NCBI RefSeq assembly: GCF_038396675.1
Contig: NC_088933.1
Span: 13,209,501-13,273,500, forward strand
Source of the DNA: Hydra vulgaris
Lineage: Eukaryota; Cnidaria; Hydrozoa; Anthoathecata; Hydridae
DNA: 64,000 nt
Reading direction: 5' to 3'
Shown piece by piece: positions 1-59,880 of this stretch; the stretch's first letter is position 1; each line of letters begins with the position of its first letter. The translations under genes and the position numbers were made by a program. The notes beneath the pieces are model-generated. The model was not told the origin of the DNA. It did not search any database and saw nothing but the letters and a program-made list of their open reading frames with translations.

Positions 1-1173
1 TTTTTTTGTTTATAACAATAGTCCGCCATTTGTAAATAGGGCCAAAGTTAAAGTCGAATTGTGGAATAAAAGTTAAAAATGCAAGTCACAATAAATTAAA
101 GTTCACAATAAAGTTAAATAAGATAAAGATAAAGTTAACAATAAATTAAAGATAATTCAAAAACACATTTTAATAATTATAAAATACTTATAAATGTTTT
201 TTTATGAGCCTATGTTTATTAAAAAGTATTTTAATTCATAAAAATGCTTCAAAAGCGTCTGTCGTTTTACTTTTCTATTCAAAACTTTAATCCCTTTTAA
301 ATCGAAAATAAATTAAGAAACCATAAATTATTACTTTACAAGTATTATAATTTCCGCTCAACACTTTTACGTAAGTAGTATTTAAATTTAAAATATATTT
401 ATTTAAGAAAAGAAAAGTTAAAAATATTTGTTTACAAATTTAATCCGCCATTTGTAAAAAGGTCAAAAAGCGGCTATACTTTTCGGATCGAAGATAAACA
501 TCTAGTTATATAATATATCATTGACCAGACGAACAGATTAAAACTAGTAAATCAAAAAAAAATTCTTTTTTCAAATCCATGCTTTATGCAAGCAGAATTC
601 TATTGGGTCTAGAAATTCTTTTTTTGTTATCTTTTGTAGAAGGAAAAATTACTGTTACGTTTTTAAATTTTTTTTATTAATTCAGTGTTCTTATAGGGAA
701 ATACAAATTAAATTTTTGTTAACTTAATTAACTTTTTTTGGTCAAATTTTTCCATTTCCTTGTATTGTCATCGAAAATGATTAAGTGTGCAAAATTTGAG
801 CAAAATTGGTTGAGAAAAAAGCTTTCAAAAATTGATTTCAAATTTTGTGGCACACAAACATATATATATATATAGAAAGTAACCTTATATAAAGCATGGA
901 ATAAAGCATGGAAAAAACAAACGTTAACCGAGCATTTACTTTGCGATGCGAATCGTTATTATTTTACGGCATTTTTATAGTGATAATTTACTACTTTTAA
1001 TAATGTTTAACTCACGATGTATATTTTAGTCGTAATTTATATCTTTATAGAATAGTATGACAAGAAACATATTTTTAAGAAAAAGCTTTTTTTTAGGTCA
1101 TTCGCCCGTATTAATGATATCACATAAAATAGTCATCTCACAAGGAAGTTTATTGTATCCCTAAATAATTTAA
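1..1173. other. AT-rich non-coding DNA
   Basis: No ORF worth reporting on either strand. The stretch is A/T homopolymer-rich with a short (TA)n run near 860. I see no transposon ends or RNA gene in it. Confidence 0.6.
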
Positions 1174-1262
1174 CTGTGTTAAATTATTTATCTTTAACCC
1201 TTTGTGTTAAATTATTTATCTTTAACTAATAAATTTAACGTTAAATTATTTATCTTTAACCC
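1174..1262. repeat. short tandem repeat, about 22-26 bp unit, three copies
   Basis: Three near-identical copies of a unit built on gttaaattatttatctttaac occur at about 1177-1198, 1205-1226 and 1240-1260, with variable linkers. It is a small local duplication with no coding potential. Confidence 0.7.
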
Positions 1263-1313
1263 TTAAACCTAACAACTGTAAAACTTGTAATTGTTACTTG
1301 ATTCTAGCAGATA

Positions 1314-1567
1314 AATTGAGGCGTTGCGAACGAAAGGGGCACACCAACCAATTTTCGAAAATCCGTTTTCTTTAACCATTTTTTACTTTAGTCTGTCATC
1401 TACAATATAACACAAGATCAACGTGTCAGTGGGCCTCTTTCTGACTGAAAATCCTATGATTTTGGTTGGTGTGCCCCTTTGCAAATTTCAGTCTAGAAAC
1501 TTCAAACGCGATTTACTCAAAACTTAATTTTGGTTGGTGTACCCCTTTTGTTCGCAACGCCTCAATT
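1314..1567. mobile_element. short non-autonomous element (MITE) with 37-bp inverted termini
   Basis: The left end (1314-1350) and right end (1531-1567) are inverted copies of each other over 37 bp with two mismatches. Key words are gaggcgttgcgaacg and ggggcacaccaacca. A third internal copy of the ggttggtgtgcccctt half lies at about 1460-1480. There is no ORF inside. I could not fix a clean target-site duplication, so the superfamily is not assigned. Confidence 0.75.
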
Positions 1568-2277
1568 GTAAGGAAAGTATTCTAATGTTATCGCAAAAAT
1601 AAGAAAAGAAGAGAATTTATTAATTCGTGTCTAGCCTTTTTTTGTGTATTAATTTATAACAAAATAAAGAACAAGCAATAGTTGACCTAAATTAGCCAAT
1701 TGTACAACTTTAGCCATCTATAAGACGCTTACAAAAATAAAGTAAGTAATGAACTTTTTAAATATTAACTAAAACTTAAGGTACATAAACAAAGCAACAA
1801 TAAAAAAAAAAAAACGTATTTATATATATTGATTTAATTTAGATATCCAAATAAGTAATAAAACAAAAACAAAAACAGCAGAAATAATAGAATACATTTA
1901 CAACAACAATAGTACTAAAGGCACACCTTTTATGACAGTATAACACAGTAACAAAAGGGTAACAAAAGGAAACATCTCTAATTTACCATTTTCAATACAT
2001 TTCAGGTAATGTTACCTCATGTCATCTTTTTATATAATTAAACTTAGATTGATACCTTTATACAAAGCTGTTGCATTTCGTTTTAAAAAAAGATCACAAT
2101 CATTTTCATGTGCAACTCTATGCACTACTCAATGGCGCATCATCTTTACTTAAACTATTAAAGAGTGAATCATGAGACTAAACACACTTCCAGTGTGAAA
2201 CAACATCAGGAATTACTTAGAAAACAAATTACTTAGAAAATTACTTAGAAACACCCATTATGATTTTCTAACATTAT
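1568..2277. other. AT-rich non-coding DNA
   Basis: No gene, no RNA and no clear repeat boundary. A-tract near 1801-1814. Confidence 0.55.
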
Positions 2278-2466
2278 TCATTTGCATAAAACTCTAACTT
2301 TTTGAAAAACCACCTGAATTAAGACAACAAAAAATGCAAAAAACCCAGATATTTTAAAAAACTGATATAAAAAAAAACTTTGTGCTATATCAATCAATGT
2401 GTCATCAAGCCAGCCAGATGAGTCTCTCAAAATATCTAAGGCCTTGTCTTTAGACTGTTTTAACAA
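2278..2466 (-). pseudogene. possible fragment of a transposon-associated protein
   Basis: A 62-codon ORF reads SSGWLDDTLIDIAQ early on, followed by hydrophobic low-complexity sequence. The W-L-[DN]-D-x(3)-x-A-Q pattern is one I associate with transposon-linked protease-like proteins of cnidarians, but the fragment is too short and decayed to be sure. No neighbouring exon was found. It could equally be chance. Confidence 0.2.
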
Positions 2467-2784
2467 ACTTTAAAGAAAACTTTAGAAAAGTTTGAACTTC
2501 AACAGCCCCTTTTACAATGATACTATCATTAACAAATAGTTTTTTTAAAGCTTTACCATTACCAGTTTAAACTCTGAATCTTTTTCTCGTCGATTGGTTT
2601 GAGGAAAAGAAGCAGACTTTATCAAATAATCTAAAATTTTAGAGTTTTTTGAAGAGTACCAAAAATCTATTAAATAAAGTAGTTACACAAATTGTTAATT
2701 TTTCAATATATTTACTTCAATGATCAGTAATTGTAATAATATATTTTTTTCCAAGTTTTATTAAGGCAACAGGTTCAATAAGGT

Positions 2785-2862
2785 CAAGGGGAAGTTTGTA
2801 TACTTCGAGGGAAAGTTTGTGTACAAGTGGAAGTTTGTATACTAGGAGAAGTTTGTGTATTG
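2785..2862. repeat. degenerate tandem repeat, about 19-21 bp unit, four copies
   Basis: Four successive copies of a unit containing ggaagtttgtatact or ggaaagtttgtgtac. It is a local minisatellite without coding meaning. Confidence 0.65.
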
Positions 2863-3854
2863 ATTTTTTCAATCCCCAAAGTGAAGTCCGCAGACTTGTC
2901 TAAAAATGACGAACTGATAAGATTACATCTCTATACTAATTACTTTGTATATAATAAAATTCCATCAAGTAGAAGGGTTTTCAAATTTGTGGCCCAAGGA
3001 ACAATAAGCTGTTTTTAAACTGTACCTAAGGTCACATTCTGAAAATTAGGTTCAAACCCATAATAAATTTACAGTTAATTTAATCTTAGGTTGTTTTCAA
3101 TAAATATTTCAAGTGATACTTAATTAAAACACTTAAAATATAACAAAATTGACTAATAGTTTTAAGCAAAATCGACAAATAAGTCAATGTATAAAATGGA
3201 AGTCCCAAAATAACTGTGGGTTTGAGATGCTGAGACATAGTACAAAATTAACTTCAGAAACATACAGCAAACATAAAATATACAATAATAATAAACTCTT
3301 AATCATAAATTATATAAAAGTTTAACTTAATTAGTGGGTTATATTTACACATACCACAAAGTTGACAATTTTTTATTATAATAATTTATTATTCCATCAG
3401 AGACAAATTGCTAAACATCTTCAATAGTATAGTTATAAACTGGCATTTTAATTATATAATTTTAAAAAATTTAAAAATATGATTATTTTTGTTTTTTGAG
3501 TTAATATCAAACGGAAACAAGACTACTTATTTAACAATAGGTTTAAATTACCTAACAGAAGTTTTGTGCCGGTTCTGCGCATGCGTAACGCTTGCGTAGC
3601 ACTTGCGCAAAACTGACTGTCTACTCATTTAACGATCTACTTACTTAACGCGACATTGGCATTCCGTATATCAGCCCAACGTGCACTAGCCTCTGCCGGC
3701 ATTTTGTAGGAAAATCAAGCTATGGAGCACTAACAAAATAATGTAAATTGTAATTTTATCAAATTACAATTTACAATCAACAAAACCCAACACAAAAGTT
3801 GCTAAGCAACTCTTTGACAAACAACCTTTGATAATAAAGATATTTATTAGCACG
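2863..3854. other. non-coding DNA with a small GC-richer patch
   Basis: Mostly AT-rich and featureless. About 3565-3720 is unusually GC-rich for this window and holds words such as tgcgcatgcgt and gcttgcgtagcacttgcgc. It may be the end of an unrecognised element. No ORF spans it. Confidence 0.5.
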
Positions 3855-4003
3855 TACCCGGTGGGGAAAAGATAGCCAAATGACACAAGATGTGTTTAAA
3901 ACGTCTAAAACACGTAGTACTACGTATTTTATACGTTTTAAACGCGTCTTATACCCAAATAAAGCGACTAGCTAGCTAGTCGCGAGTTCATTCCCACCGG
4001 GTA
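3855..4003. mobile_element. 149-bp MITE with tacccggtggg termini
   Basis: The ends are inverted: tacccggtgggg at 3855-3866 and tcccaccgggta at 3992-4003. The interior is itself partly palindromic around acacgtagtactacgta and contains ctagctagctag. There is no ORF. It lies just downstream of the 3' end of the first alarmone-synthetase-like gene. Confidence 0.7.
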
Positions 4004-4191
4004 ACATATTATTATGTAATGTCAAATTTTAAACTTTTTTTTTTTTTGTTGTCATCGATCTTTTTATTATTACTATTGTTTTAAAAATATCTTACTTTAA
4101 TTACAGAAAAAACAAAATTTTGATTAAAGAAAAAGTATTTAAATCATTTGATAAATTAACTTCTAATTTACAATAAAATGTTTCGGGATTT

Positions 4192-6075
4192 TCATTGTCC
4201 AAGTTTCATATCGTACCACCAAAAACAACCATTCGGTGGTTCACCTATCTTTTTGAACATTTTTTCAGCATCAGCTGATGGCAAACTTGAATTTAGAATC
4301 TTCATTGCATTTGCATTTTTTAAAAAAGTTGGGCACAATGGTAAGTTTGATCTGCTGGTGTCTGATATCAAAAAATAATCAGCTAACGCCAGTGAATAAC
4401 TATTTACTTCTGTACTTTTACTAATTTCTGTTGGACCTTTATAAATGAAGTCATGACTCCAGTCTGACCAATAGTTTGTATACGGCGTTCCGATTTGTAG
4501 TTCAGCTGTTTTATTGCCTTGTATTAAACGAAGAATGAGATGGATTCTTCGATACCCACCTTCTTTGTATTTTCCTGCATTGGGACACATTCCATAACAT
4601 TTCTCATTCAATATTTCAAAGTTTTTTTTATCTTTTTTAATAGCATCAGTGATTCGAAGAGCTTCGTTTACTGTTTGACATGTTAGTCTAAGGCCAATGA
4701 TATCGTTTAACTCCTGTAGAGTAGTTTTATCTTTTTCCAATTTTCCTTGAACGCTGTATGCTGCCTTTAAACGACCAGTTAAAACAGCACTGCTGTTCAC
4801 AATACTTTTAATGTTTTTTTGTGCTGAGTCAAAAGCTTGTTTGTGTGTCTTGATGAATTTTTCAATCTCAGGAAGTGTCGGTATCTGGGATACACCCGAG
4901 CTACTTCTTCTTACCCAGAGATTGTTTTTCGCTTCTCTTTGCCAGTTACTGAGAAGTTTATCCCAGGAGTTCAACTTGTCATCTAATAAAATATAGTCTC
5001 GTGTATGGCCTCCGATAAAATCCAAATTTTGATTGACTTGATTCTTTTTTGTTTTTTTTCTGTGTTCATGGAAACCTTGGATTTTCTGTGAACTTCTGCG
5101 TTCATGAAGGTGGTTTTGTTTTTTGTGGGATGAATCTTGTTTACAGCAAGTTTTTTCTGGAAGAGCTAGAAGCATATCGTACCACCAAAAACATGCATTA
5201 GGAGGGTGATTAACTTTATTAAACATTTTTACTGCATCTTTTTCATTTGGTATAGCTTTTTTTAAAATATCAAGAGCGTTTGATTTATTTAAAATAGCTG
5301 GACAAATTGGCATTTTGTCACGCTCATTGTCTAGTTTTAAAAAATAATCAGCTAATAAAATAGAATAATTCTGAACCGTTGATTGGTTTGTTATTTCTGC
5401 TGGTCCCTTATAGATAAAGTCATGACTCCAATCTGCCCAATAGTTTGTAAATGGTGTACCAATTTGTAACTCTGCTGGTTTATTTTCTGGTTTCAAGCGA
5501 AGAATGAGATGAATTCTCCTGTACCCGCCCTTTTTGTATTTTTCAGCGCCAGGACACATTCCATAACACTTCTCTTCTAAAATTTCAAAATTTGTTTTAT
5601 CTTCCTTAATAGCTTTGGTTATTTGGAGAGAATCTTTCACTGTTTGACACGTTAGTCTTAGTCCAATGATATCTTTTAAATCTTCAAGACCATTTCCATC
5701 ATTTTTTAGTTTCCCTTGAACGCTGTAAGCAGCTTTTAAACGACCAGTTAAAACAGCACTGCTTTTCACAATGTTTTGTATATTTTTTTGAGCTTTTTTA
5801 AATGCAGGTTCAAATGTTTGAATAAACTCTTTTATTTTTTCTATACTTGGTGTTACTGTTGCAGCTAAACTGCTTCTTTTTATCTCATGTAAACCACTTA
5901 AATCTTTTTCTGCTTCACTTGTCCAGTCATTAATAAGGTTTTCCCAAGCAGTATCATCTTCTATAAGACGATAATTTCGACTGTGTTCATATGGGATATC
6001 CTCAGTGTTAATGGTACAAACGCATATAATAAATATAATTAAGAAAAACTGAATAGGTATTAGAAATGTTTTCAT
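4192..6075 (-). CDS. secreted protein with two RelA/SpoT-like (alarmone) synthetase domains
   Basis: A 627-codon intronless gene. Residues 1-24 form a strong signal peptide (basic start, long hydrophobic core, then TINTED). Two homologous halves follow (about 30-305 and 355-627). Each starts H-[ST]-R-[ND]-Y with a W...L...W...EA segment, has a dibasic site before SS (IKRSS near 68, VRRSS near 381), then a synthetase fold. The first copy shows GRLKAAYSVQGKL (111-123), DIIGLR (135-140), GGYRRIH (183-189), AELQIGT (201-207) and WSHDFIYK (216-223). These match the R-x-K-x3-S-x3-K, D-x-x-G-x-R, GYRS-x-H, E-x-Q-I-R-T and H-x3-YK signatures of small alarmone synthetases, with Gly in place of the Arg of IRT. 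Each half ends in a Cys-containing FWWYDM block. Extra Cys (CYGMC) suggest disulfides and secretion. A candidate AATAAA lies about 124 nt past the stop. Known family reaction: pyrophosphate transfer from ATP to a guanine or adenine nucleotide. Secretion is inferred; substrate and activity are unknown. Confidence 0.9.
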   Translation of the reverse strand: MKTFLIPIQFFLIIFIICVCTINTEDIPYEHSRNYRLIEDDTAWENLINDWTSEAEKDLSGLHEIKRSSLAATVTPSIEKIKEFIQTFEPAFKKAQKNIQNIVKSSAVLTGRLKAAYSVQGKLKNDGNGLEDLKDIIGLRLTCQTVKDSLQITKAIKEDKTNFEILEEKCYGMCPGAEKYKKGGYRRIHLILRLKPENKPAELQIGTPFTNYWADWSHDFIYKGPAEITNQSTVQNYSILLADYFLKLDNERDKMPICPAILNKSNALDILKKAIPNEKDAVKMFNKVNHPPNACFWWYDMLLALPEKTCCKQDSSHKKQNHLHERRSSQKIQGFHEHRKKTKKNQVNQNLDFIGGHTRDYILLDDKLNSWDKLLSNWQREAKNNLWVRRSSSGVSQIPTLPEIEKFIKTHKQAFDSAQKNIKSIVNSSAVLTGRLKAAYSVQGKLEKDKTTLQELNDIIGLRLTCQTVNEALRITDAIKKDKKNFEILNEKCYGMCPNAGKYKEGGYRRIHLILRLIQGNKTAELQIGTPYTNYWSDWSHDFIYKGPTEISKSTEVNSYSLALADYFLISDTSRSNLPLCPTFLKNANAMKILNSSLPSADAEKMFKKIGEPPNGCFWWYDMKLGQ

Positions 6076-6507
6076 GTTTTTATTATCCAGAGCACTGACA
6101 CTAAATCTATTTTTTACATCAATGCATTTAATAGTTATTGATGCGTTTAATGATTAGCGATGCATTCATAAATTATGTTTTTTGGTTAAAACTTGCTTGT
6201 TTTTTGGTAAACACAGAAGACGTTAAATTGCTTTCAGCTTTATCCTTTTTAGGTGGAACACTACTCAAAATCACTTCTTAGACAGTTTTGCCAAGGAAAC
6301 ACCTCTTCTTTCAACGTTTTGATTTATTTTAAAAAATACGCAATGAGAAAAATGAAAACAAAAATTATTTAATCTTTATAAAAGATTTAAAAACTTGATA
6401 TTATTCCACGCCGATCTCTCGTATTTTCCTTAAATAAAAAATAAAATATAAAAATAATAAAGCATCCCATAGATCTGCAAATTATCAAATAGTAAAATAA
6501 TTTCGTG
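6076..6507. other. upstream flank of the first synthetase-like gene
   Basis: AT-rich. No convincing TATA box at a sensible distance and no second exon visible. The promoter must lie here, but I cannot point to it. Confidence 0.5.
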
Positions 6508-6984
6508 TAGGGGAGATCGGGCTTGCTGCAACAGGGGTAGACGCAACAATACGGTTTAAAAGATGATTTTTACATATTTTTCCAAAATTTTTCTTGAATA
6601 ATACAACTATAATTTTAGCACGTCAACTGCAAAAAACTTACAGTTATTAAATAAAAATTTTAAAAGTTATTGATATATATTTTTTTTTCTATATTAAATT
6701 CTAAATTTCGTTTATCAAGTTTTTTTGGGTTTTACTTAAAAACTTTGAGGTATATGACCATAATATAGTAATGGTAGGTTAAAAAAATCTTTTTCAAACA
6801 CAATAAGCTACAAAAAACTTTTTTCAATAAAAATAATTATATACAATGATTAGAGTGATTATGATGCCTATGGGTAAGTTGCAACAAATTGCTCGGGGTT
6901 GAATCACAAATTAGCTTAACTTGTTTTTTCTAGAATAATGGACGCATATTTTATACAACAGCGTAACAATAAACGAAAGCAAAA

Positions 6985-7475
<491 letters not shown>

Positions 7476-7479
7476 AATT

Positions 7480-7912
<433 letters not shown>

Positions 7913-8051
7913 ACATATATGCATAGATACATTATCATTCATATATAAATAAATAATGATGTAGGTTAAGTTGTATAAAATGACTTAAATGTTTTTTTAT
8001 TTTGCTGTTATTTGATTAAACTGTTATTTTGTGCTTAAGTAAAAATTGTAA

Positions 8052-9557
8052 ATGAGAACTTACAAGAAAAAAATTGAAAATGGACTTTATCGAACAGCAG
8101 TGGTAATAGAGGCAGCAAACCATGTTATTGATGGAAAAGAAATATCGATTAGAGCATCACCAAAAAAGTATGGAATCCGCTACTCAACTCTTTTTTGTTA
8201 CATAAATAAAGTAAAAAAAGTTAATATTGGAATGCTGCTACCTATTCCTGGTTATAAAAAGTCATGCCATGTTTTCAATTTAGAACAAGAAAAAGCTATT
8301 GCTTTATATATATGTCAACAGCTTCTGATATTTATTTTGGACTATCACCTTAAGAAGCATGAAAACTTGCATTTGAATGTGCTATAAAGTATAACATTGA
8401 TTTTCCAAAATCTTGGTTAAAACTTTCGATGGCTGGTCCTGACTGGATGAGAGGGTTTTTAAATCGACTTTCAGGATTGTCTATCAGAACTCCAGAAGCA
8501 ACTTGCACGAGCTACTAGTTTAATTGTGCTAATGTAGGTGTCTTTTTTCAAAAATTATCAGATATTTTAGATAGAAATCATTTTTCTGCATCTAATATTT
8601 ACAATGTTGATGAGACTGGTATAACCACTTTGCAAAAACCAAACAAGATAATTGCTCGTAAAAGTATTGAGCAAGTATTGGGGCATTAACATCTAAAGAA
8701 TGGGGAACACTAGTGACAATGGTGTTAGCTGTAAATGTATGTGGCAATAGTGTGCCTCCAATGTTTCTATTTCCGAGAAAGAACTTTTTTGATCACTTTA
8801 TTCGTGATGGACCAAATGAATACATTGGTGCTTCGAATAGGTCAGGCTGGATGAATGAGGAGTGCTTTGTTACTTAATTAAACCACTTTATTCGGCATGT
8901 CAAGCCCACAAAAGAAAGCCCTGTGCTATTACTTTTAGACAACCATCAGTCTCATTTATCTGTTCAATTAATAATATTGTGTAAAGATAATGGTATAGTT
9001 TTGCTTTCCTTTCCTCCTCATTGCTTGCATAAGTTGCAACCTCTAGATAGATCTGTATTCGGACCATTCAAAAAATGCCTAGCTAATGCACAAGACTCAT
9101 GGATGAAACAATGGCCAGGAAAAACATTGAGTTTATATGATTTGCCAGGAATTGCAAAAATAACCTTACAGCATTCTCTTACAAAACAAAACATAACATC
9201 TGGTTTTAGAGTGGCAGAAATATTCCCATATGATAAAGATATATTTTCAGATGCAGATTTTGCTCCATCATTTGTTACTGATCGTCCAACATCTCAATCT
9301 AAAACAGGTATTGATATTAGTATATCAACTTCAATCTCAGATGCAATTTTATCTCCGGCATCATTAGAATTTTCCCCAGAGACTGTAAGACCTCTACCAA
9401 GAGCACAACCTAGGAAAGAAATACTAGATCAAAGAGAAAGTATGCAGAAATCTTTACAGATACTCCAGTAAAACAGCGACTTATGGCTGAAAAAAAAGTT
9501 AGTTATAGAAAGAGAAAGTCTAATACTTCTACATCAACAAACAAAAAAAAACATTAA
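8052..9557 (+). pseudogene. pogo/Tigger-type (CENP-B/jerky-like) transposase, broken
   Basis: Begins MRTYKKKIENGLYRTAVV with a Psq/CENP-B-like helix-turn-helix (about 8052-8220). After a frameshift near 8330 the reading resumes with WLKLSMAGPDWMRGFLNR, then NVDETGIT (first catalytic Asp, near 8605). Stops or frameshifts occur near 8518, 8688 and 8877. The core LLLLDNHQSH (second Asp, about 8925-8955) and PPHCLHKLQPLDRSVF follow in frame, with a Lys/Arg-rich tail recovered after another frameshift near 9470. The order HTH, DDE_1-type catalytic core and basic tail is that of pogo transposases. Several independent lesions make it inactive. It lies centrally between the termini described for this element. 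Confidence 0.85.
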
Positions 9558-11289: not shown

Positions 11290-14200
11290 TTATTAATGGC
11301 CGATCCGAATCTCCACGTTGTCAATATCGTCTTTTGAGAGTGAATAATCACCTTTTTCATTAGTTGGTGTTGGTGCATCAATCTTACAAACAATGTCAAG
11401 AGACGAACATTGGAGAATATTTTCTTTGGTTGGCCACTTAAAGCAGTTCTTTCCAGGTGTAACAGAATATTCCATTCAAGAAACATATATATCATCGTCA
11501 TTGACCTAACGGTTGAGGTAAAGTAACGTCTAATCATTGCTGCTTCCTAAATATTCCTTGAAATTAGTTATTATGGTTAATAAACCAATAATTTTGTAAT
11601 AGATCTCAATACACAAAAATACAATATTATAGTGTTAAAACTTCTTACATTTTTAATTATTGCAGGATACCATTGCATAAAGTATGGAACAACAATCCAA
11701 TCACCAATTTGAAAATCAGCTGCTAACTCCTTTGCAATCAACTGAATATCATTGTTTAAATCATCTTCTTCGTTTTCAAGTGCGTCTTTCATATCAACAG
11801 TTTCATCAATCACATCATCAGTTAAGTTAACCTCTTCACAAAAAGTGGTTGCCAACCTTCCTGTTCTTTTTTGCTTACTCCATCTAAAAATTTATACTTG
11901 AAGGATAAAGGAAATTGCTAAATATTTATCTCAAGTCCCAAGAAAAGAAAAAAGTCACATTTTTTAGCATACATACTTTGGGTATTTGTAACACATACAA
12001 GTTAATTTACTTGCCTACGGAATAATGATCGAATTTGTTGAGTTGTCACATATTCACATGGCTTTAACATTGTCCTCAGCTGTTGGTGAACTTGCTCTGG
12101 ATTCATTTTCTTCCCACATTCTTCTCCAGCCATAAACATCTGCATTAGCAATGTTTTTTGCTTTAAAGAATATCAAAATACTTTTCTTTTTGGTAATGCC
12201 CATCCAGTGATGCTTGTGAAATTTTCAACCCCTTGTTTAATGATAGAATGGGATAATAGCAGGTGATCAGAAGAATTAAGGTTCGAATTTAGGTTCATTT
12301 TGTTGACATAGGAAAGTCTTGCTCTGTCTACCATAGATTTTGCCACAGATTGAGAAGTGTGGTTTTCTGAAAGTATATGCTCTGCTAATAACTCAGTATC
12401 ATAATTTTGTACACAAATTGGTTGTGCTGAATCAAAATGATTCAGCACAACCAATTTGTGTACAAAACTTAAGAGTATTAACACTTCTATCAACACGTTT
12501 TTTTTTGGAAACTGATGGCGCAGTATGACTTTTGCAAGTTGAACTATGGGGCTTAACAATTTGAACTGAAGAATGGAATGTCACATTAGTATAGTTCCAT
12601 TTTTTACCTTTTCCAGTTCGGAAGTATCTCCACATTATCATGTGATCAGAGGAAAACTGAAAAGAATGATAGCTATTAATGCTGGGAATCAGATTTGTTC
12701 CTGATAAAGTAGAAGCTTTGGAGTCTATTGTAATTACAGCGACATCAGCATTTTGAATTCCATTGCCATAATGAAGAGCCTCATAAATATCTTCTGCAGT
12801 CAACATATTGTTTCCAGCATCAATAAAACTCCTTATGACACATTTCGCTCCTGCTGACTCTTTGTCACATTGATCTTTTCCACGTGACGGCTCATTGTAA
12901 TCATACCTTTTAAGAAAGAATTGTTTTGCTTTGCAAACTTTGTAAAGAGCTTCTAAGTAGAAGTTGCCATGATAAGTTGATGCATTATCTGACTTAGCAT
13001 AAAGGTTTTTTATACAAGGAAAATCATTTCGAACTTTGGTTAAAACAACATCAGCTAAACAGAGTACATCAACAAGGCTTTGCTGACATCTATAGACAGC
13101 AGTGAAATAGACTTTTTTTTTCATTTAACCATTTTCATGGAAGAAGAAGACATCAACATGTAGAGTCATTCCTTTTATTCCGAAATAATCCTTTTGGCTT
13201 TCACGGAATTTAGCTGGCAAAATTTTCTGACAAAAATCTTTCAGCCAAAAACCAGTTTCCTCATCAAGTTGCTCAAAAGCCATTATTTTGGCTATTTTTT
13301 GTTGTGCATCACGTATTTCATGCTTCATATAGGCTTCAACATCTTCAGTAGCCACATTTAAATCATATAGAAGATCTTCATCTTTACTTTCTATAACTAA
13401 CTCACGAACCTGGTTGATTGCTGAAATGAGGTTTGCACAGTCAAAACATTGTTCATTTTCAGCAGCTATAAAGGGTTGATTCAAGTCTGGATCTATATCT
13501 GAAAGAGCAAAAGAAGTAGAGTGACTATGCAAAGTGGAACTTTCACTACACTTGAAAGGATAATTACTCTTCAAATACCTTTTACCCTTTTCAAGGAACT
13601 TAGTAATATTTTTATACCTCCACTTTTTAGAAATAGCAATCAAAGTTTGAAACCCATCCATGCCAGCTGCCGTGACATCATCAAGACAAGCCAAAGCTTT
13701 CCTTTGAGAAGGTTTTATTCCACGAAGAATTCTCCATAAAGAAGTATCTGACATAGGGAGATAATTAGTTTCTTGGCAAACTTCTTTATAAAATGTGATT
13801 GTATGGCTAAACTTCATCATTAAAATGGCATTAGCCACTTTTTTTTCCTCTCCATTGTCAAACTTTATTTTATTTACACCATAAACTACATCTTGCAGCA
13901 AACCTCGACAAAACATAAATTCTGAAAAATGTTCTATTTTTTCCTGTGGCATTTGGCATATGTTTACCTTTTCCTTTTTTGGTATGGAAAGTTCTCTGTT
14001 TTGTTTTTGAAACTTGCGTGCTTTTTTAATTTGATGTTTTTTGCAATTAAAGATTTTCATTAATGCTTCTTTAGTGTACTTTTTATGGTTAATAACTGAA
14101 AGCAAAAAAATTTGTCCTACAGAATCGCTTTCTTGAAACATCTTAACTGGTACAACAAGGTCTTCTGGAACCAATTGTGTTGAACCATCTTCATCCTCAT

Positions 14201-15063
14201 TGTGTAACACTTGAGAAATTAGTACCTCTGATTGACCTGGTGCAATTGCTTTAGCAAATATCTTCTCAAGCTGCATTTTAAATTTTTCAAATTTCTTTTT
14301 ACCTTTCTGTTTGGTTCCTGGGGTTAAGTCTTCTATTCGCTTTTGCTTTATCTGAAAGGACAGTGGACTTGCTCTAAATGCTTCACACAAAGAGCTAGCT
14401 GCTTTTTTTGATTCTTCGATAATTTCATCTGAAATGATTGTTATATCTGGAACATATATGTCATCAGCAGGAAAGCAAGACTTTATTGGCGTTGGAGCTG
14501 GTTCTAACATGTCAATATTGTTACCTGTAGAAATACTTTTTAGGTGGCTGAAGCAAAATACGGCTCCAACAGGAAGTGATAAATTCTTTTCATTATAAGC
14601 AGCAAGGGTGTTCAAAGGGATGGATTTAATTTTTGGTGCTTTTTTACCGATTTGAAATTCATGTCTTGGGTGTTGACAACTGTTTGGCTGCTTCCAGCCA
14701 ATACCAAAAGAAAAACGATGGTACGCACATAATGAGTCATAGCGTGAAAGATAAGCTTGTAGTCGGTTTTCAATCAAGGTTTTTTCATTCCACTGGTTTG
14801 TCGGTAGAAGCTATAAAACAGTAACGTTAGATTTTCCACCTATGGAAAAAGAAATCCTGTTTCTTTTAATAAAAAAGCAAATAATACTCTAATATTATTC
14901 ATACCTTTAAAGCATGTAAATAATTAGTTATGTCAGCAGTTAATTCATTAACTTGAAAGATTCCATCTTTGTTCCAACGCTTAAAGGGACCACAAGAAGT
15001 CTTCTCTTTATAAAAATATATGTATTTCTCATAAGGACTGACTTTATTCTTGCTCTCTGACAT
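11290..15063 (-). pseudogene. DDE-like transposase of the TTAA element, spliced gene with an in-frame stop
   Basis: Exon 1 (14905-15063) starts MSESKNKVSPYEKYIYF and ends at a GTATGA donor. A 94-bp intron (14811-14904) ends in TTTTATAG, and exon 2 continues in phase from 14810 with LLPTNQWNEK. Exon 2 runs 560 codons to a TAA at 13125-13127 and stays open in the same frame for 230 more (KKKVYFTAVYRCQQS onward), so a single nonsense codon splits the core. Core signals: GMTLHVDVF (about 13150), KSDNASTYHGNFYLEAL (about 12970) and KDQCDKESAGAKC (about 12850), which look like Asp/Asp/Glu catalytic positions. Further segments downstream: FMAGEECGKKMNPEQV near 12100, QIGDWIVVPYFMQWYP near 11690 (Tudor/SH3-like), and a terminal exon ending IRIGH near 11293. 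I recognise the type from uncharacterised invertebrate transposon proteins but cannot name the family. A 30-bp palindrome has disrupted it at 12405-12467. Confidence 0.65.
12405..12467. repeat. perfect 30-bp-arm palindrome inside transposase
   Basis: Left arm 12405-12434 and right arm 12438-12467 are exact reverse complements around a 3-bp spacer (word gtacacaaattggttgtgct). It duplicates transposase coding sequence in inverted orientation, creating false ends for the ORFs on both strands. Confidence 0.9.
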
Positions 15064-27182: not shown

Positions 27183-29044
27183 TTATGATTCACAGTAGTA
27201 GCATAAGTCTGAATCATCTGGACCACATGAAAAGTGGTACCAAGATGTACATTTACTACATTGTGTCCAATCATCAAATGGTGACACATTGTATGGAAAA
27301 GAGCATATGGTGCATAGAGTTGTATCAGTGATAAAAATTTCAGAGGCAGAAACCATATCTTTTTTCTTTTCATTTGTTTCTTTATGCCATTAGGTCTTTC
27401 TGCTTTCTGCTTTTCATGCTTTTTCACCTTTTTTGTCTTCAAATTTATTGATTTCATTTTTTGCTTGATCACCTTATTAAGTGCAGCTTTTTCTTTACGC
27501 AATATGACTGCTTGTTGCTTTTTTTTTACATTGTTTTCATGCTCTTCTAGTCGCTTCTTGAAAGGTAAAGAAGTAAGGTTTTCAGCTGACTCTGTCTTTC
27601 TCTCTCGTTGTCTTAAAACAGGAATTTTGGGACGTGGAGAAATTTTTTCCAAAATATTTAAGGGAGAATTAAGGCCAAGATACTCATCAACAATTGGCAA
27701 AACTGCATCATTAACAGCCTTCAATTTTGCAGCAGTAGTTGTTGTGCTCATGACATTTGCCAACTGTATAGGTGCAACAAGAGGCAAATTAGGCAATTCA
27801 CTAGATTACTGACAGATTTTCAATGGCTCAGCTTCATTAGTGAGCAAAGCTGCTTCAAAGGCTTCATCATTAAAAATAAGGTCATTTAAAGGGTACAAAC
27901 AAGAGCATCTAAAACCATTGATTGCTTTGTCAACGTTTGCAGTAAAGTTGTAGGCCGTTGAAAAAATACCTGCCATGTCAAAAAATGAAATTCTACGACC
28001 CTGATGTGATAACATCCAGTTGCTTGCTGCTGTATTGTAGCCAACTTTCAATGGTTTAAAAAATGTACGATCTAAAGGTTGCATCTTGTGTGTACAATGA
28101 GGTGGAAGAGTTATGAGATGGATCCCATTGTCACAACAAAAGTTAATGGCCTCAAGTGTTTTGTGACTGTGATGACCATCAAGTACAATTAATAGCTCAT
28201 TAGTTTTAGATGCATGAGTCACAGCAACAAAATGTGTTAACCATTCAATGAATAAAGATGAATCAGTCCATCCCCTGGAGCTAACTCTAATAATTGAGCC
28301 TGAAGGTGCACCAACAGCCAGCCTATCAGTCATTCGCTTACGGGGAAATATAAATAAGGGTGGGACATAAGTGCCACTTGCACTCATTGCACACACAACT
28401 GTCACAGTAGCACCTCTTTCTCCACTAGTTATTTTCGAAACTTGTCGTTTGCCTTTCGTTGCAATTATTTTTCCTGGCTTATGGAAATTTGTGATTCCAG
28501 TTTCATCCATATTCCAGAGCTGTTTGGCTGAAAACTTATGTTCCTCAAATAATGACTTGTATACTGAAAAAAACTGATTTACTTTTGATTTATTGAAGCC
28601 AATGGCTCTGCTTATACTGGTGGCTTGTGGAGTTCGAATAGAAAGTTGTGGATTGCGAGACATGAATCCTCGCAGCCAATCCACTCCTGCCATTTTTGAC
28701 TCTTTATTAAAAGGATTATCGATTCCCATTTGCTTAGCAAAATCATATGCTAGGCGACGCACATCTATTGTTGTCAAGCCAAATAATGCTGTTTCCATAA
28801 TCTGAACTTGTGTAACAATCTTTAATTCAAATTCTTTACTAAAAACAGAAAATTTTCCACCCAGAGACAAACCATCAGCTACTTTTACTTTTCCATCTCG
28901 ATGACGTTGTAATGTTTTTTTATTAATACTAAATTCTGATGCAACATTCTTTAGACTGCAGCCCATCTTTATTACATCTAATGCTGACTTTATTCTATCA
29001 TTTGTTGCACCTCTCTGTGTTTTTCGCACATAATTTCTCACCAT
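27183..29044 (-). pseudogene. pogo/Tigger transposase with C-terminal PHD-like finger; one stop, one frameshift
   Basis: Starts MVRNYVRKTQRGATNDRIKS with an HTH (CSLKNVASEFSINKKTLQRH), then a CENP-B-type DNA-binding region (WLRGFMSRNPQLSIRTPQ). The catalytic core has NMDETGI, LLIVLDGHHSH (second Asp) and LPPHCTHKMQPLDR. After 412 codons a single TAA (27806-27808) interrupts an otherwise open frame that continues for about 145 residues of Lys/Glu-rich, coiled-coil-like sequence. A frameshift near 27355-27370, in a T-rich run, is needed to enter the last exon-like segment. That segment carries the order Cys-x2-Cys, Trp-x2-Cys-x2-Cys, Trp-x-His-x3-Cys and Cys-x2-Cys of a PHD-like zinc finger and ends at 27183. 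Few lesions, all late in the gene. Confidence 0.85.
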
Positions 29045-30553: not shown

Positions 30554-31419
30554 TCAAACAGAGAAGTGAAGTACATGTATGCCCTTAGTACAGTCATCAT
30601 GCTCTATATCATGCTCTGTGAGCCTCTTACTAATGTGCTCTCCAGCTTTCCTACGTGTTAAAAGGGTTTCAATTGATTGAATGTGGGTTTCACTTGTTTC
30701 ATGGCGAGCTAAGTCTCTTGCAGCGTGTTTCCAATCATCATATCCTGATGACATCAAAGCAGATGCTCCGATTCCACATTTTGAATTAAATAATTTACAA
30801 TGGGCGCAGAAAACCTTACTAGTTGATGGGGAATAGCAAATCCAGTCTCTCTTAATTTTCTCACCATTCACTTTTTCCCGGAAAAAAAGGGACTTTGTAC
30901 ACGGTCCTTTAAACTTAAAAGTGTCACCAGGCAGTACTTTAGTAGATAATTTAAAATCGCTATCCATATGTTGGCATGATAAAAACCCATCTGCACTTTT
31001 GCTGAAATACTCACGCAGGTCGTCGGTTATAATCCACTCAGCCACATCGGTGTTAACTGTGTGGGTCGTCAGAGCCAGGGGTAACACTGCTGAGATAGTT
31101 GAGACGCTTGAACTTGCTGTAGCTGAGTCTGCTGAGACACTATTAGAATTACCTGGAACTGGTGCTGACATAGTGAGTTTGAACTCGCTGTTGCTGAGTC
31201 TGCAGGGACACTATTAGCACTACCTGGAACTGGTGCTGACATTATTGACATAGTTAGTGAATTTGAACTCGCTCTCGCTGTAACTGATACCGAGACACTA
31301 CTTGCAGTATTACAAAACTCAGTCATTTTTTTATTTTTGTTCAATAATTCATTTAATTGAATCTCATTCTTCTTCTTTTTTTGCATTTTGTCCCAACCGC
31401 TCAGGCCGCTCCTTTTCAT
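30554..31419 (-). pseudogene. N-terminal fragment of hAT transposase (TTF-type zinc finger)
   Basis: Begins MKRSGLSGWDKMQKKKKNEI near 31419, typical of hAT proteins of the ZMYM/TTF group. A Ser/Ala/Val-rich linker follows that contains a local duplication (MSAPVPG...SNSV twice), with a frame change between copies. The frame 31171-30554 then reads LREYFSKSADGF, CTKSLFFREKVNGEKIKRDW and the TTF zinc-finger signature CYSPSTSKVFCAHCKLF, then DWKHAARDLARHETSETHI. It stops before any DDE core. The element therefore needs a transposase from elsewhere. Confidence 0.85.
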
Positions 31420-31516
31420 TTTTTATTTTAATTTTGTAAACGAATGAGCAATGCTGTAATTTTCTGCGGTAACGGAAGTGATCATAAAATAAAATAATTT
31501 TTTTTTTGATGTTTTA

Positions 31517-31848
31517 ATGTTTGAGAACATTCAAGTTTATTTATGTTTCCATCTATGTCCGCACAACTATCAGTTTTTTAAATACACGCTAAAAAATTAA
31601 CTTCGTGACATATAAATTTTCTAATCAAATAGGTTTTATAAGAGAGTGCTTTAAAATCATTCACTAATATAATTGTTTTTCCTTTAAAAGGTTTTTACAT
31701 CAACGAATGTTTTAAAAGCATTCTCTTATAAAACCTATTTAATTAAAAAATTTATGTCACGTAGTTAATTTTTTTAGCGTGTTTTTTAAAAACTGATAGT
31801 TGTGCGGACATGGATGGAAACATAAATAACTTGAATGTTCTCAAACAT
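31517..31848. repeat. fold-back repeat, about 150-bp arms, inside hAT
   Basis: Left arm from 31517 (atgtttgagaacattcaagt) and right arm ending 31848 are inverted copies with scattered differences, meeting around 31665-31698. Possibly a MITE nested in the hAT element. Confidence 0.85.
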
Positions 31849-32174
31849 CTTTATGCGGAAAGATAATTTAAAAAATATTTGCGAGTACCAAAATTCCGCC
31901 AAATATATGAAGATAGAGATATAGTATATCTCTATTCATTTATTTATTCACAACGCCTCCGCAGCTCCCAATAAATTGATTTAAAAAAACTGAGAAACAT
32001 AGGAATATTTATCTGGTTCCCTAAAAAAAAAAAAAAAAAAAGTCACGGGCCTTAGGGCCTATTTTTTTAATAAGGGCCTGGGGCTGCGGCCCGTCCGCCC
32101 CCACCTTAATACGGCCATGCACATAAGCAAAAAGACTTCTTGCCCCACGGGTCATCTTGCCCCACCCTACCCTA

Positions 32175-33163
32175 TCGGTAGACGATTTAGATTAAAAGGT
32201 TAAATCTCCCAATTTTTATGGTAAAAAAATATAATTTTTCTGTTTATTTATAACATTATTTTTGTGTTCAAAATGTTATGATTTTAGTATATTAATCTTT
32301 TTATCATTATTTATACAATATTTAAAAACGTATGTTTTTGTTTTTCCATTCTTAATTTCAACTTATTTAATAAAGTTGGAATTAAAAATTAATTTGTATA
32401 CAAGCAATTTAAAAAAATTATAAAATTAATAATATAAGATTAGTTATAAAACGTAAATAACATAAAAATATATATTTTATATATACAACAACAATATAAA
32501 CAACAGCAGCTGTAAATTAAGTGAAAATCTCTCAACGTTAAAAAATATAGATATAACTCTATTATTCTACGTCACGATTTGTAAACACGAATCCTGGATT
32601 AAACAGTGTTTAGTATATTTCTAAGAAGTAAGTAATAAATAAAAACACCCAACATAAATAAAAAAAATTTAACTCTGATATCAGAAAAGCCGCAGGAAAT
32701 TATTTGTTCCGGAATATAGTAAAGTATATGAGCAAGTAAATACAAAATATTCTCGTCTGAATTCCCAAACGTTGCGCAAAAAACATTATTTTCTTAATTA
32801 TTTCTTTCATTCAATTTCATGTTCAACATTCTTAAAAAAAAGTTTTTTTTTTGCATTTTTTTTGATCATTCATTTTTTTTTTACCAAACTATAATGACTG
32901 TAATAGAGCTACAATAAATAAAGCGCTAGTAATACTTTTGCAAAGTGTGTTTACTATTATTTTTTTACTACAATTAAATATTTAGATTTGATATAAATTT
33001 ATCGTGATTACAGTAATGTTATCACAATTATATTTTTTATTACAGTAAAATATATCGTTTGCAAAATTTATCTTTTAATGTATTCATTGTAATCATTATA
33101 ATCTTTCAATACAATCACGCAATGAGATTATTAAACCACGCTCATAGTTCTGTTAAAATAGTT
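32175..33163. other. AT-rich non-coding DNA and 3' flank of the second synthetase-like gene
   Basis: No gene. A candidate minus-strand polyadenylation signal AATAAA lies at 33036-33041, 123 nt past the stop of the gene at 33164, nearly the same distance as in the paralogue. Confidence 0.5.
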
Positions 33164-35098
33164 CTAAAACATTGTGAATAATATCTCAATGCAAAGAATT
33201 ATCGTAAATAAATTAAAACGCAACGAACTTGCACTGGATCCACTTGGTGATGTCGGTTTAGTATCTGGTTCAGTTTGCCCAAGTTTCATGTCGTACCACC
33301 AAAAACAACCATTTGGTGGTTCACCTATTTTTTTAAACATTTTTTCAGCATCAGGTAATGGTAAACTCGATTTTAAAATATCTAATGCATTTGCATTTTG
33401 TAAAAACGTTGGGCACAATGGTAAAATTGATCTGCTCGAATCTGATGTCAGAAAATAATCGGCTAACGCCAACGAATAACGGTTGACATCACTACTATTA
33501 TTGATCTCTGGCGGGCCTTTATAAATGAAATCATGATTCCAATCTGACCAATAATTTGTATAAGGTGTACCAACTTGCAATTCAGCCATTTTACTTTCTG
33601 GTATTAGGCGAAGAATGAGATGGATTCTTCGATACCCACCTTCTTTGTATTTTCCTGCATTGGGACACATTCCATAACATTTCTCATTCAAAATTTCAAA
33701 ATTTTTTTTGTTTTTTTTAATTTTATCCACAATTCGAAGAGATTCATCCACTGTTTGACATGTTAGTCTTAGACCAATGGTATCATTTAAATCCTGAAGT
33801 CTAGTATTGTCTTTTTCTAGTTTTCCCAGAATACTGTTTGCTTCCTTTAAACGACCCGTTAAAATTGCATTGTTTTTTACTATATCTTTAATACTTTTTT
33901 GTAATGATTCAAACGCAGGTTTGAAAGTTTGAATAAATTTTTCAATTTCATCCAATGTTGGTAACTTAGTTATAGTAAAGCTACTTCTTTTAAACCTGAT
34001 GCTTTGTGTTTTTTTATGCCAATCACTCATAAGGTTATCCCAAAGGTTAGGGCTGTCATCAATTAAAATATAGTCTCTTGTATGGCCGCAATTAGTTTCC
34101 AAATCGTGCTGCAACCGATTTAGGTCTAAGCTTCTGCGATTTTTGAAAGATGTTTCTGATTTACCGGAAGCTTTTTCAGGCAAAGCTAGACGCATATCGT
34201 ACCACCAATAGCAAGCGTTAGAGGGTTCATTAACTTTATTGAACATTTTCAATGCGTCTTTTTCTGGTAAAGTCTTTTTTAAAATATCAAGAGCATTTGA
34301 TTTTTCTAATATTTCTGGACATTTTGGCATATGATTCCGATCTTCATCTAATTTTAAAAAATAATCTGCTAGGAATAAAGAGTAATTCTTCACTGTTGTT
34401 TGGTTTGTAATTACTTCGGGTCCTTTATAAATAAAGTCATGGCTCCAATCCGCCCAATAGTTGGTAAATGGTGTACCAATTTGTAACTCAGCTGTTTTGT
34501 TATCCGGTTTTAAACGAAGAATGAGATGAATTCTCCTATACCCGCCTTCCCTGTATTTTTTAGCACCAGGGCACATTCCGCTACATTTTTTCTCTATAAC
34601 TTCAAAATTTGTTGTATCTTTTTCAATAACGTTGGTTATTTGATTAGAATCGCTAACTGTTTGACAAGTTAACCTTAGTCCAATAATATCATATAAACTC
34701 TCGAGAGTAGTTCCACTTTTTTCGAGTTTTCCTTGAATGCTGTAAGCAGTTTTCAAACGACCAGTTAAAACAGCACTGCTTTTCACAATATCTTTGATGG
34801 TTTTTTGTGCAAATTTAAAGGCAGGTTCAAATGTTTTGATAAATTTTTCAATTTCTTCTAATTTCGGTACTTTATTTTTTGTATAGGCATTCCTCTTTAT
34901 TCTATATCCATTTTTAAAATCATTTACTGCGCGTGTTTTCCATGTTTGAATAAGTTTTTCCCAATCACCTTCGTCTTCAATGAAGATATAATCTCGACTA
35001 TGATCGAATCCTATGTCCTCAGCTAAAACTTTAGACTTGTATATATTTATAAAACTTGCTATAAAAAAAAATCGGATTGTCAGCAAAGTCTTCTTCAT
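33164..35098 (-). CDS. GPI-anchored (predicted) protein with two RelA/SpoT-like synthetase domains
   Basis: 644 codons, no introns, paralogue of 4192-6075. Residues 1-26 form a signal peptide. Domain 1 (about 70-300): RIKRNA dibasic site, GRLKTAYSIQGKL (113-125), DIIGLR, GGYRRIH, AELQIGT, WSHDFIYK and CYWWYDM. Domain 2 (about 338-608): FKRSS site, GRLKEANSILGKL (415-427), DTIGLR, GGYRRIH, AELQVGT, WNHDFIYK and CFWWYDM. All four domains of the window keep the R-x-K-x3-S-x3-K, D-x-x-G-x-R, GYRR-x-H and Glu-x-Gln signatures and all have Gly where bacterial enzymes have Arg in IRT. After the second domain, where the paralogue stops, a Ser/Gly/Pro-rich spacer and a 17-residue hydrophobic tail (FNLFTIILCIEILFTMF) follow, a typical GPI-attachment signal. 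Predicted location: cell surface. Function and nucleotide product are unknown. Confidence 0.9.
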   Translation of the reverse strand: MKKTLLTIRFFFIASFINIYKSKVLAEDIGFDHSRDYIFIEDEGDWEKLIQTWKTRAVNDFKNGYRIKRNAYTKNKVPKLEEIEKFIKTFEPAFKFAQKTIKDIVKSSAVLTGRLKTAYSIQGKLEKSGTTLESLYDIIGLRLTCQTVSDSNQITNVIEKDTTNFEVIEKKCSGMCPGAKKYREGGYRRIHLILRLKPDNKTAELQIGTPFTNYWADWSHDFIYKGPEVITNQTTVKNYSLFLADYFLKLDEDRNHMPKCPEILEKSNALDILKKTLPEKDALKMFNKVNEPSNACYWWYDMRLALPEKASGKSETSFKNRRSLDLNRLQHDLETNCGHTRDYILIDDSPNLWDNLMSDWHKKTQSIRFKRSSFTITKLPTLDEIEKFIQTFKPAFESLQKSIKDIVKNNAILTGRLKEANSILGKLEKDNTRLQDLNDTIGLRLTCQTVDESLRIVDKIKKNKKNFEILNEKCYGMCPNAGKYKEGGYRRIHLILRLIPESKMAELQVGTPYTNYWSDWNHDFIYKGPPEINNSSDVNRYSLALADYFLTSDSSRSILPLCPTFLQNANALDILKSSLPLPDAEKMFKKIGEPPNGCFWWYDMKLGQTEPDTKPTSPSGSSASSLRFNLFTIILCIEILFTMF

Positions 35099-36117
35099 GT
35101 TCTTGTTATAGCGATTAAAAAGTTACTTTATAAAACCATCAGTTTTGCGATATCAAGTTTGTTTTATTAAATATATTGTTTAAATAATAATTCAAACAAT
35201 ATTTGTATCGGATTGACGTCATGGTTGGCACCTCAATCCAAAGATGTACTCAGTCAATCGCTGTTCTTATTTTTTATTTTTTATTTCATTTATAAATTCC
35301 AACTTTAAAAAAAAGAAAAGAATCTATATAGATATTTTATTTACTTTAACATTTTATTTAGAAACATGGATATACAGAAACATACATATAGAAAAAGATA
35401 AATCTTTTTTTTTAAAGGACGAAGAAGGGAGGTTTCAAGGCTATTATGTGCTCTAAGAAAACTTAATAGTATTTTCACAAAGCACGATGAAGATCATTTC
35501 AGTAGAAAGTTAACGCCTCTATTTTTATTTTATTTTACTAAGAGCAGACCTCAAACTTCGGAACTTTTGATTCTGAAGGAAGGGCTCTTACCACTGTGTC
35601 ACGGCTTATTTTAAGTCTAAATGAATTTGTGCAAAACCTCTAAAATAAAATATAGAAATGATAAATATTTATAAAGTCAGTATTTACCAACAGCTTTTAT
35701 GTGTATATACAACAATAATATTAGTTTAAAAACCTTCTAGTTGAACAAAAAGTAAAAAAAGAATGAAGTTAAAAAAAAGTATTTTCTAAAAATAAAGAGT
35801 AATTGTAAGTTTTGAGAATATAGCATATATTGAAATTTTAGATTTCAATGTTTATTGTCTTACTTTAATATTGTTATTAATTTATTGGTTTTTCGTAATG
35901 AGGCTGAATCTGACAAAGTATTTGAATCACGAATTTTAACGTTAATTATTTTTAACTGAAAACTTAAAAAATCTGTTACTAAGTTAATCCGTTTACGGTC
36001 ACTCATAAATATAAAAATATATAAAAAATACGGTCACTCACTATATAAAACAACAAAATTAAAAAAATTAAAAAACAAACGATAAATGTTTATGTAGATT
36101 TTACTTATTTTACATAC
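35099..36117. other. upstream flank of the second synthetase-like gene; no gene seen
   Basis: AT-rich. A ttttataaagt word on the minus strand sits about 25-35 nt before the ATG and could be a TATA box, but this is weak. The ORF on the plus strand near 35244-35456 looks like chance. A tRNA-like remnant is at 35545-35612. Confidence 0.45.
35545..35612 (-). repeat. tRNA-like remnant (SINE-type)
   Basis: The minus strand reads aagccgtgacacagtggtaa and continues with an anticodon-arm-like and a degenerate T-arm-like segment (aagtttgaggtctg in place of a B box). The overall length of about 70 nt fits a tRNA shape, but the acceptor stem does not pair. Most likely a tRNA-derived repeat. Confidence 0.35.
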
Positions 36118-36133
36118 ATACATGCATACATAC

Positions 36134-36164
<31 letters not shown>

Positions 36165-36395
36165 CATACATACATACATACATACATACATACATACATA
36201 CATACATACATACATACATACATACATACATACATACATACATAAATAAATACATAAATACATTCATACATACATACATACATACATACATACATACATA
36301 CATACATACATACATACATACATACATACATACATACATACATACATACATACATACATACATACATACATACATACATACATACATACATACAG

Positions 36396-36445
<50 letters not shown>

Positions 36446-36730
36446 GTATACATGTATGTATGTATGTATGTATGTATGTATGTATGTATGTATGTATGTA
36501 TGTATGTATGTATGTATGTATGTATGTATGTATGTATGTATGTATGTATGTATGTATGTATGTATGTATGTATGTATGTATGTATGTATGTATGTATGTA
36601 TGTATGTATGTATGTATGTATGTATGTATGTATGTATGTATGTATGTATGTATGTATGTATGTATGTATGTATGTATGTATGTATGTATGTATGTATGTA
36701 TGTATGTATGTATGTATGTATGTATGTATG

Positions 36731-36762
<32 letters not shown>
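36118..36762. repeat. giant (CATA)n-(TA)n-(TATG)n palindrome
   Basis: (CATA)n occupies about 36118-36405 with one interruption at 36240-36268, a (TA)n core follows to about 36440, then (TATG)n to about 36762. The two flanking arrays are reverse complements of each other, so about 640 bp form one cruciform-capable palindrome. The Cys-Met-Tyr-Val and His-Thr-Tyr-Ile ORFs on both strands are artefacts. Confidence 0.95.
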
Positions 36763-36763
<1 letters not shown>

Positions 36764-36949
36764 GCATCAAATTTGGAATAAATTCTACTGCACTGAGCGC
36801 ATCAATTGTTAACCAAGACTTCTGAAAAATTTAATTCTCCTTAATTATAACGAACGAAAAAAGTTTTATAACATTGTCTATGGTTTAAGTCTTATCGTGT
36901 ACTTTGACTCTTTAATAAAATCTGAAAGAGTAGATTCATCTATGGGTTG

Positions 36950-37036
36950 ACTGATGTCCGGCTTTTACGAAAGAGGGCACAGTACGAATCCTAATCTTTA
37001 TAGATTCGGCACTGTATTAAAAAGCCGGATATCAAA
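36950..37036. repeat. imperfect hairpin with ccggctttt/aaaaagccgg ends
   Basis: Ends gtccggctttt and aaaaagccggat are inverted. Inside, cacagtacgaat and attcggcactgt pair again. Possibly a very short MITE whose right end was then tandemly amplified (next entry). Confidence 0.6.
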
Positions 37037-37127
37037 CAACATTAGATTTCTCCTAATTAAAAGCCGGATATCAAACAACATTAGATTTCTCCTAATTAAA
37101 AGCCGGATATCAAACAACATTAGATTC
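37019..37127. repeat. 39-bp tandem repeat, about 2.7 copies
   Basis: Head-to-tail copies of a unit starting aaaagccggatatcaaacaa and ending ttagatttctcctaatt. Confidence 0.9.
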
Positions 37128-39194: not shown

Positions 39195-39376
39195 ATGTAT
39201 GCTGATGATACAAATTTGTTTATGTTCAATAATGATATTATGGAGATATGAGTATTAAATTGATGAAAGTAAACAAATGGTTCCTTTATAATAATAAACA
39301 AATTAAAAAAGAGGAATTTTTAAAATACCTTGGAGTTTTTATAGATAAAATCTCCAAGGTATTTTAAAAATTCCTC
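39195..39376 (+). pseudogene. LINE reverse-transcriptase fragment ending in a hairpin
   Basis: Reads MYADDTNLFMFNNDI (catalytic Asp-Asp), then KVNKWFLYNNKQIKKEEF and LKYLGVFIDKI, the usual RT-to-thumb order, with a stop in between. The last 25 bp of coding sequence (39311-39335) are repeated exactly inverted at 39352-39376, so an inverted duplication truncates the fragment. Confidence 0.75.
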
Positions 39377-59840: not shown

Positions 59841-59880
59841 TTTTTTTTGAAAAAAAAGAAATAAAACATTTTTTTCCTAT

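Follow-up and report, generated by a model that had tools for sequence, protein, structure and literature searches.

Two minus-strand genes of a Hydra genomic window encode tandem RelA/SpoT synthetase domains in candidate exported proteins

The window analysed here, a stretch of 64,000 nucleotides (contig NC_088933.1 of assembly GCF_038396675.1, filed under Hydra vulgaris), carries on its minus strand two related genes, designated gene 1 and gene 2, each of which encodes two tandem domains of the RelA/SpoT synthetase family, the family with which bacteria produce the starvation signal ppGpp. The parts of the two genes are as follows.

4192..6075, minus: gene 1, a single open frame of 627 residues whose start resembles a signal peptide, with two RelA/SpoT synthetase domains
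6004..6075, minus: putative signal peptide of gene 1 (residues 1-24; cleavage point guessed; basis, Kyte-Doolittle hydropathy)
5152..5985, minus: first synthetase domain unit of gene 1 (residues 31-308; best stretch for Pfam RelA_SpoT, residues 111-224)
5026..5148, minus: inter-domain linker of gene 1 (about residues 310-350; rich in Lys and His, and longer in the alignment than the linker of gene 2)
4195..5007, minus: second synthetase domain unit of gene 1 (residues 357-627; RelQ-like stretch, residues 431-552)
4192-4194, minus: stop codon of gene 1
33164..35098, minus: gene 2, 644 residues, a full-length paralogue (identity to gene 1, 66% in 629 aligned columns)
35021..35098, minus: putative signal peptide of gene 2 (residues 1-26, ending V-L-A; cleavage point guessed; Kyte-Doolittle 1.94)
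34169..35002, minus: first synthetase domain unit of gene 2
33275..34084, minus: second synthetase domain unit of gene 2
33167..33274, minus: C-terminal tail of gene 2 (residues 609-644; Ser/Gly-rich, then a hydrophobic end with Kyte-Doolittle 2.49), resembling a glycosylphosphatidylinositol (GPI) anchor signal

The coordinates given for gene 1 in the initial annotation were exact, and the gene was assigned to the minus strand, frame 1 of the plus strand being full of stops. The chance of an open run of 627 codons is about 1e-23 given the base composition of the window. The protein is built of two similar units of about 275 residues each, which are 59% identical to each other. The two tandem synthetase domains that had been proposed for it were recovered by profile search, in which Pfam RelA_SpoT (PF04607) matched two stretches in each protein, with E-values of 1.4e-37 for gene 1 and 2.1e-37 for gene 2; the scores of the two genes, 128.9 and 128.3 bits, passed the curated cut-off of 27. 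RelA_SpoT was the sole family above its Pfam cut-off in either gene, and none of the HD, TGS and ACT domains of the long RelA/SpoT homologues (RSH; Rel/RelA/SpoT) passed. Likewise, no HD hydrolase domain of the MESH1 type was detected with Pfam in gene 1 (E up to 10) or gene 2 (E up to 0.01). The candidate defence model PDC-S33 of PADLOC matched gene 1 at 5.3e-31. A long imperfect TA repeat lies at 7017-7920, about 0.9 kb upstream of gene 1.

The five signatures previously read from gene 1 (R-x-K-x3-S-x3-K, D-x-x-G-x-R, G-Y-R-R-x-H, E-x-Q and H-x3-Y-K) were indeed present in both of its halves, and the same five motifs were found in both halves of gene 2. The contact residues of Staphylococcus aureus RelP (SaRelP), given in parts of PMC5794853 as Arg78, Lys80, Ser84, Lys88, Arg91, Asp107 and Glu174 (Mg), Arg112, Tyr151 (guanosine nucleotide) and His190, were located in the window domains from the spacing of the motifs in alignments to RelQ-type enzymes. 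Nine of these 10 residues were identical in all 12 rows of alignment A6, which comprise the four window domains and 8 of 10 distinct viral-contig proteins from the loci of scan A4 (L014 and L016 were excluded as near-duplicates, and L015, L017 and L019 are mutually close, so that there are fewer than eight independent rows). Set against 18 invariant columns of 271 overall, this invariance has a hypergeometric P of 2e-11, a rough value, since the alignment is itself anchored on the motif columns and is made up of related sequences. The window domains are 20-26% identical to the eight bacterial/viral rows. These relatives are distant, and the acquisition by horizontal transfer that was suggested earlier would be a possibility.

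A structure was modelled for one of the four domains, the second of gene 1, and it matched the synthetase (nucleotidyltransferase) fold, including that of the toxic synthetases Tas1 and CapRel; a protein of the giant virus Fadolivirus named RelA/SpoT-like also matched (E 3.8e-7). Identity in the fold alignments was 23% with RelQ, 18% with RelP and 12% with a bacterial exported synthetase. The initial annotation was to be given up if no nucleotidyltransferase fold was predicted or if the ATP- and Mg-binding residues were lost; the fold was matched in the one modelled domain and those residues were kept. Membership of the RelA/SpoT synthetase family is strongly supported.

Both proteins begin with a hydrophobic stretch by Kyte-Doolittle analysis, compatible in gene 1 with the signal peptide claimed earlier, and both are candidates for export. 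In gene 1 this stretch spans approximately residues 4-22, with a mean over 15 residues of up to 2.97 versus 0.97 for the best internal window. Paired Cys residues had also been noted, and four per domain, two pairs by position, proved invariant in all four window domains and absent from all eight bacterial/viral rows; two of them lie in a K-C-x-G-M-C-P segment that immediately precedes the guanosine loop, and two in an extra C-terminal segment. These pairs may form disulphides. Each protein carries six glycosylation sequons, and the Cys pairs together with the sequons would suit life in the secretory pathway. Gene 1 ends where the C-terminal tail of gene 2 starts, and since a Ser/Gly-rich stretch followed by a hydrophobic end is the layout of a GPI-anchor signal, the gene 2 product is a candidate for GPI anchoring.

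Between the two genes, the second domains are 74% identical and the first domains 70%, versus 60% for first against second. Because the domains in like positions resemble each other most, the doubling of the domain most likely preceded the doubling of the gene. By Nei-Gojobori counting, the synonymous divergence (dS) between gene 1 and gene 2 is 0.78 and the ratio of nonsynonymous to synonymous divergence (dN/dS) 0.26, with a dN/dS of 0.16-0.21 between first and second domains; both genes are under purifying selection. When the regions 1-8000 and 31000-40000 were compared (E up to 1e-3), similarity was confined to the coding parts, and both genes look old and constrained at the sequence level. 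A possible third copy at 37364-37537 on the minus strand gave a tblastn E-value of 0.004 but a profile E-value of 0.3, and we attribute it to chance or to a relic.

Prokaryote genomes were scanned twice by exact short peptide patterns, with 65 and 117 matches and no relatives; since the patterns are family-specific, this is weak evidence of absence. Pattern scans of viral contigs yielded relatives in 3 of 17 matches (A2), none of 2 (P0001), none of 81 (A3) and 14 of 39 (A4); later scans gave 2 of 36 and 4 of 8, every one at contigs already found. By protein search, 111 records were obtained from phages (E up to 10) and 45 from plasmids (E up to 1); none reached 60% identity, and many of the matches listed (20 of the 111 and 20 of the 45) were weak.

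The window proteins differ from each of the known synthetases with which they were compared. RelQ (SAS1, YjbM; Bacillus subtilis; PDB 5DEC, 5DED, 5F2V) is a single-domain homotetramer without signal peptide or Cys pairs, and its Phe42 is Val or Ile in the window domains. RelP (SAS2; PDB 6EWZ, 6FGJ) is also a single domain without an export signal. The toxic synthetases Tas1/Apk1 (6OX6), FaRel2 (8PU4) and CapRel (7ZTB) are cytosolic or injected, and come with an immunity partner or an antitoxin part, whereas no toxSAS immunity or antitoxin gene was recognized among the 20 window open reading frames (ORFs) scanned with Pfam, a set that leaves out most short ORFs and any spliced genes. The bacterial exported synthetases (SaEAS and VpEAS/RelV) have one synthetase domain instead of two, and were not among the sequence-search matches listed at E up to 1. 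According to parts of a report in mBio 2025 (PMC12691689), the exported enzymes of Streptomyces (SaEAS) and Vibrio (VpEAS/RelV) inhibit growth inside Escherichia coli but not when exported, and that of Streptomyces has low Km values suited to scarce nucleotides. Two further groups were compared by description only. The XopAD-type effectors of plant pathogens, which according to parts of PMC3482391 typically hold two RelA/SpoT domains, likewise act outside their producer, but are bacterial and injected; fungal NLR proteins carrying RelA_SpoT domains, for which parts of PMC4986451 propose an action on bacterial signalling, are likewise a eukaryotic use of the domain, but are fused to NACHT and are not exported tandems.

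We lean, with some reserve, towards the reading that both genes encode exported small alarmone synthetases with two tandem synthetase domains each, that of gene 1 being soluble and secreted and that of gene 2 being held at the outer cell surface via a GPI anchor. Catalytic activity, predicted from the residues retained, is quite likely. Each domain would bind Mg-ATP and transfer the beta,gamma-pyrophosphate to the 3' hydroxyl of an acceptor nucleotide; the acceptor and the biological target are guessed, the former being GDP or GTP, or possibly ADP or ATP as in some toxic relatives. The products would be AMP plus guanosine tetra- or pentaphosphate ((p)ppGpp) or the adenosine equivalents ((p)ppApp). 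Damaged cells or microbes might supply the substrates outside the cell by spilling nucleotides. Nearby microbes might be affected by the product or by the depletion of ATP, or either of these might serve as a mark of damage; export would keep the cytosol clear of a dangerous activity.

Several observations weigh against the proposal of exported synthetases. The substrates are presumed to be scarce outside cells. As gene 1 is without the C-terminal tail, the two genes need not work in the same place. The NCBIfam equivalog model for RelQ/YjbM (GTPPhKinYjbM) matched gene 1 at 2.4e-30, but the score of 105.8 bits is below the curated cut-off of 320, and the long-RSH model spoT_relA reached 49.2 bits, below its cut-off of 499.2. 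The good structure model drew on the eight bacterial/viral rows, which bias it towards the synthetase fold; a model from the four window domains alone failed (predicted local distance difference test score, 40), and residues 1-38 and 227-271 of the good model were barely tested by the fold comparison. Furthermore, Arg91 of SaRelP is replaced by Lys in three of the four window domains and by Asn in the other, and the E-x-Q-x-R motif is incomplete, with Gly in place of its Arg in all four domains versus Arg in all eight bacterial/viral rows, RelQ having Arg as well. Because of these two changes the activity could be altered. As the E-x-Q-x-R Arg may not be required, the family assignment rests on the Pfam score and the contact residues.

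The same two changes, together with the new Cys residues and the new C-terminal segment, speak for an extracellular protein of RelA/SpoT fold in which catalysis has been lost or changed, and which now serves as a nucleotide-binding or structural surface protein. We regard this as unlikely, since nine of the 10 contacts with nucleotide or Mg are the same in all four domains of the two genes, despite an identity of only about 60% between first and second domains. Had the active site decayed, drift would be expected in one copy at the least.

Somewhat less probable still is a venom, gland or digestive toxin, that is, an enzyme that, once delivered into prey or rival cells, would act as a poison through alarmone synthesis or pyrophosphate transfer, as the bacterial toxic synthetases do. 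The exported form, the fold match to Tas1 and CapRel and the two-domain architecture of the injected XopAD-type effectors (PMC3482391, in part) are in keeping with such a role, as is the lethality of YjbM under an actin driver in the fly, described in parts of PMC7666150. However, no delivery domain was found among the Pfam matches of either gene, and gene 2 looks membrane-anchored.

The surroundings of the two genes bear on the identity of the host. The GC content of the window is 29.4%, and that at third codon positions (GC3) is near 25% in the two genes. Besides a Psq-type helix-turn-helix element, the window contains the following mobile-element features.

43196-46183, minus: uninterrupted endonuclease-reverse transcriptase ORF of a long interspersed nuclear element (LINE), 995 residues (Pfam)
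27806-29044, minus: uninterrupted DDE_1 transposase ORF, 412 residues, between the two synthetase genes
8923-9468, plus: shorter DDE_1 match

The eukaryotic setting assumed at the outset is borne out by the LINE and the DDE_1 transposases, and the window is eukaryotic nuclear genome. Synthetases of the same class are already known from eukaryotes other than animals, namely, according to parts of the survey PMC3153485, as divergent small synthetases in Dictyostelium, Aspergillus, Gibberella and two heterokont algae, in addition to the fungal NLR proteins (PMC4986451, in part), and a host of that kind would make the two genes less unusual only in the improbable case that the window is not of animal origin. 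That case is opposed by the surroundings of the genes. The low GC content, the LINE, DDE_1 and the Psq helix-turn-helix together would presumably suit a cnidarian genome such as that of Hydra. No tRNA and no Rfam family at its gathering score gave a clue to the host. Contamination of the assembly by bacteria, although the domain family is chiefly bacterial, can be dismissed for practical purposes in view of two copies 27 kb apart, separated by a transposase ORF and with a LINE further along, a GC3 matching AT-rich DNA and the low identity to the bacterial/viral rows.

Within the LINE region, 44001-46000 has a GC content of about 40% versus 29% for the window. Three adjacent ORFs of 571, 172 and 1043 residues at 58125-63745 on the minus strand had no PHROG match; those of 571 and 1043 residues also had no Pfam match, and the former was without a convincing PDB match. 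We take the size and order of these three ORFs to recall a Polinton/Maverick-like element. Two adjacent ORFs of 230 and 550 residues at 12432-14777 on the minus strand, without a Pfam match, may belong to a single gene or element.

The lack of any known synthetase in animals, whose MESH1 is a hydrolase, agrees with the portions of PMC3153485, PMC7666150 and PMC9965611 on which we draw: no small synthetase was identified in animals in the 2011 survey (Atkinson; PMC3153485), the class is given as absent from metazoa in a 2023 review (PMC9965611), and ppGpp was detected in flies and human cells, with no animal synthase identified (Ito 2020; PMC7666150). MESH1 is found in animals and shares with the window proteins the wider RelA/SpoT superfamily, but it is described there as a hydrolase domain only, which removes alarmones. 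Our literature search, of partial coverage and liable to miss papers through the slash in 'RelA/SpoT', yielded, among the papers listed, no description of such a protein in an animal, and the main text of a compendium of animal gene transfers (PMC13342648), as far as it extends, contains no mention of alarmone, ppGpp, Hydra, Cnidaria or pyrophosphokinase.

We tentatively suggest, as a possibility that we would not yet bet on, that a cnidarian makes alarmones outside its cells by means of secreted and surface-anchored double-domain synthetases, and so controls resident bacteria or signals damage. If true, it would make these the first alarmone synthetases known from an animal. The window synthetases by themselves would not explain the ppGpp of flies or humans; given its presence there without a known animal synthase, they would, if the host is an animal, provide a concrete enzyme to test. 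An exported tandem protein with an apparently anchored sister suggests a route by which a host may address or suppress microbes through a bacterial second messenger.
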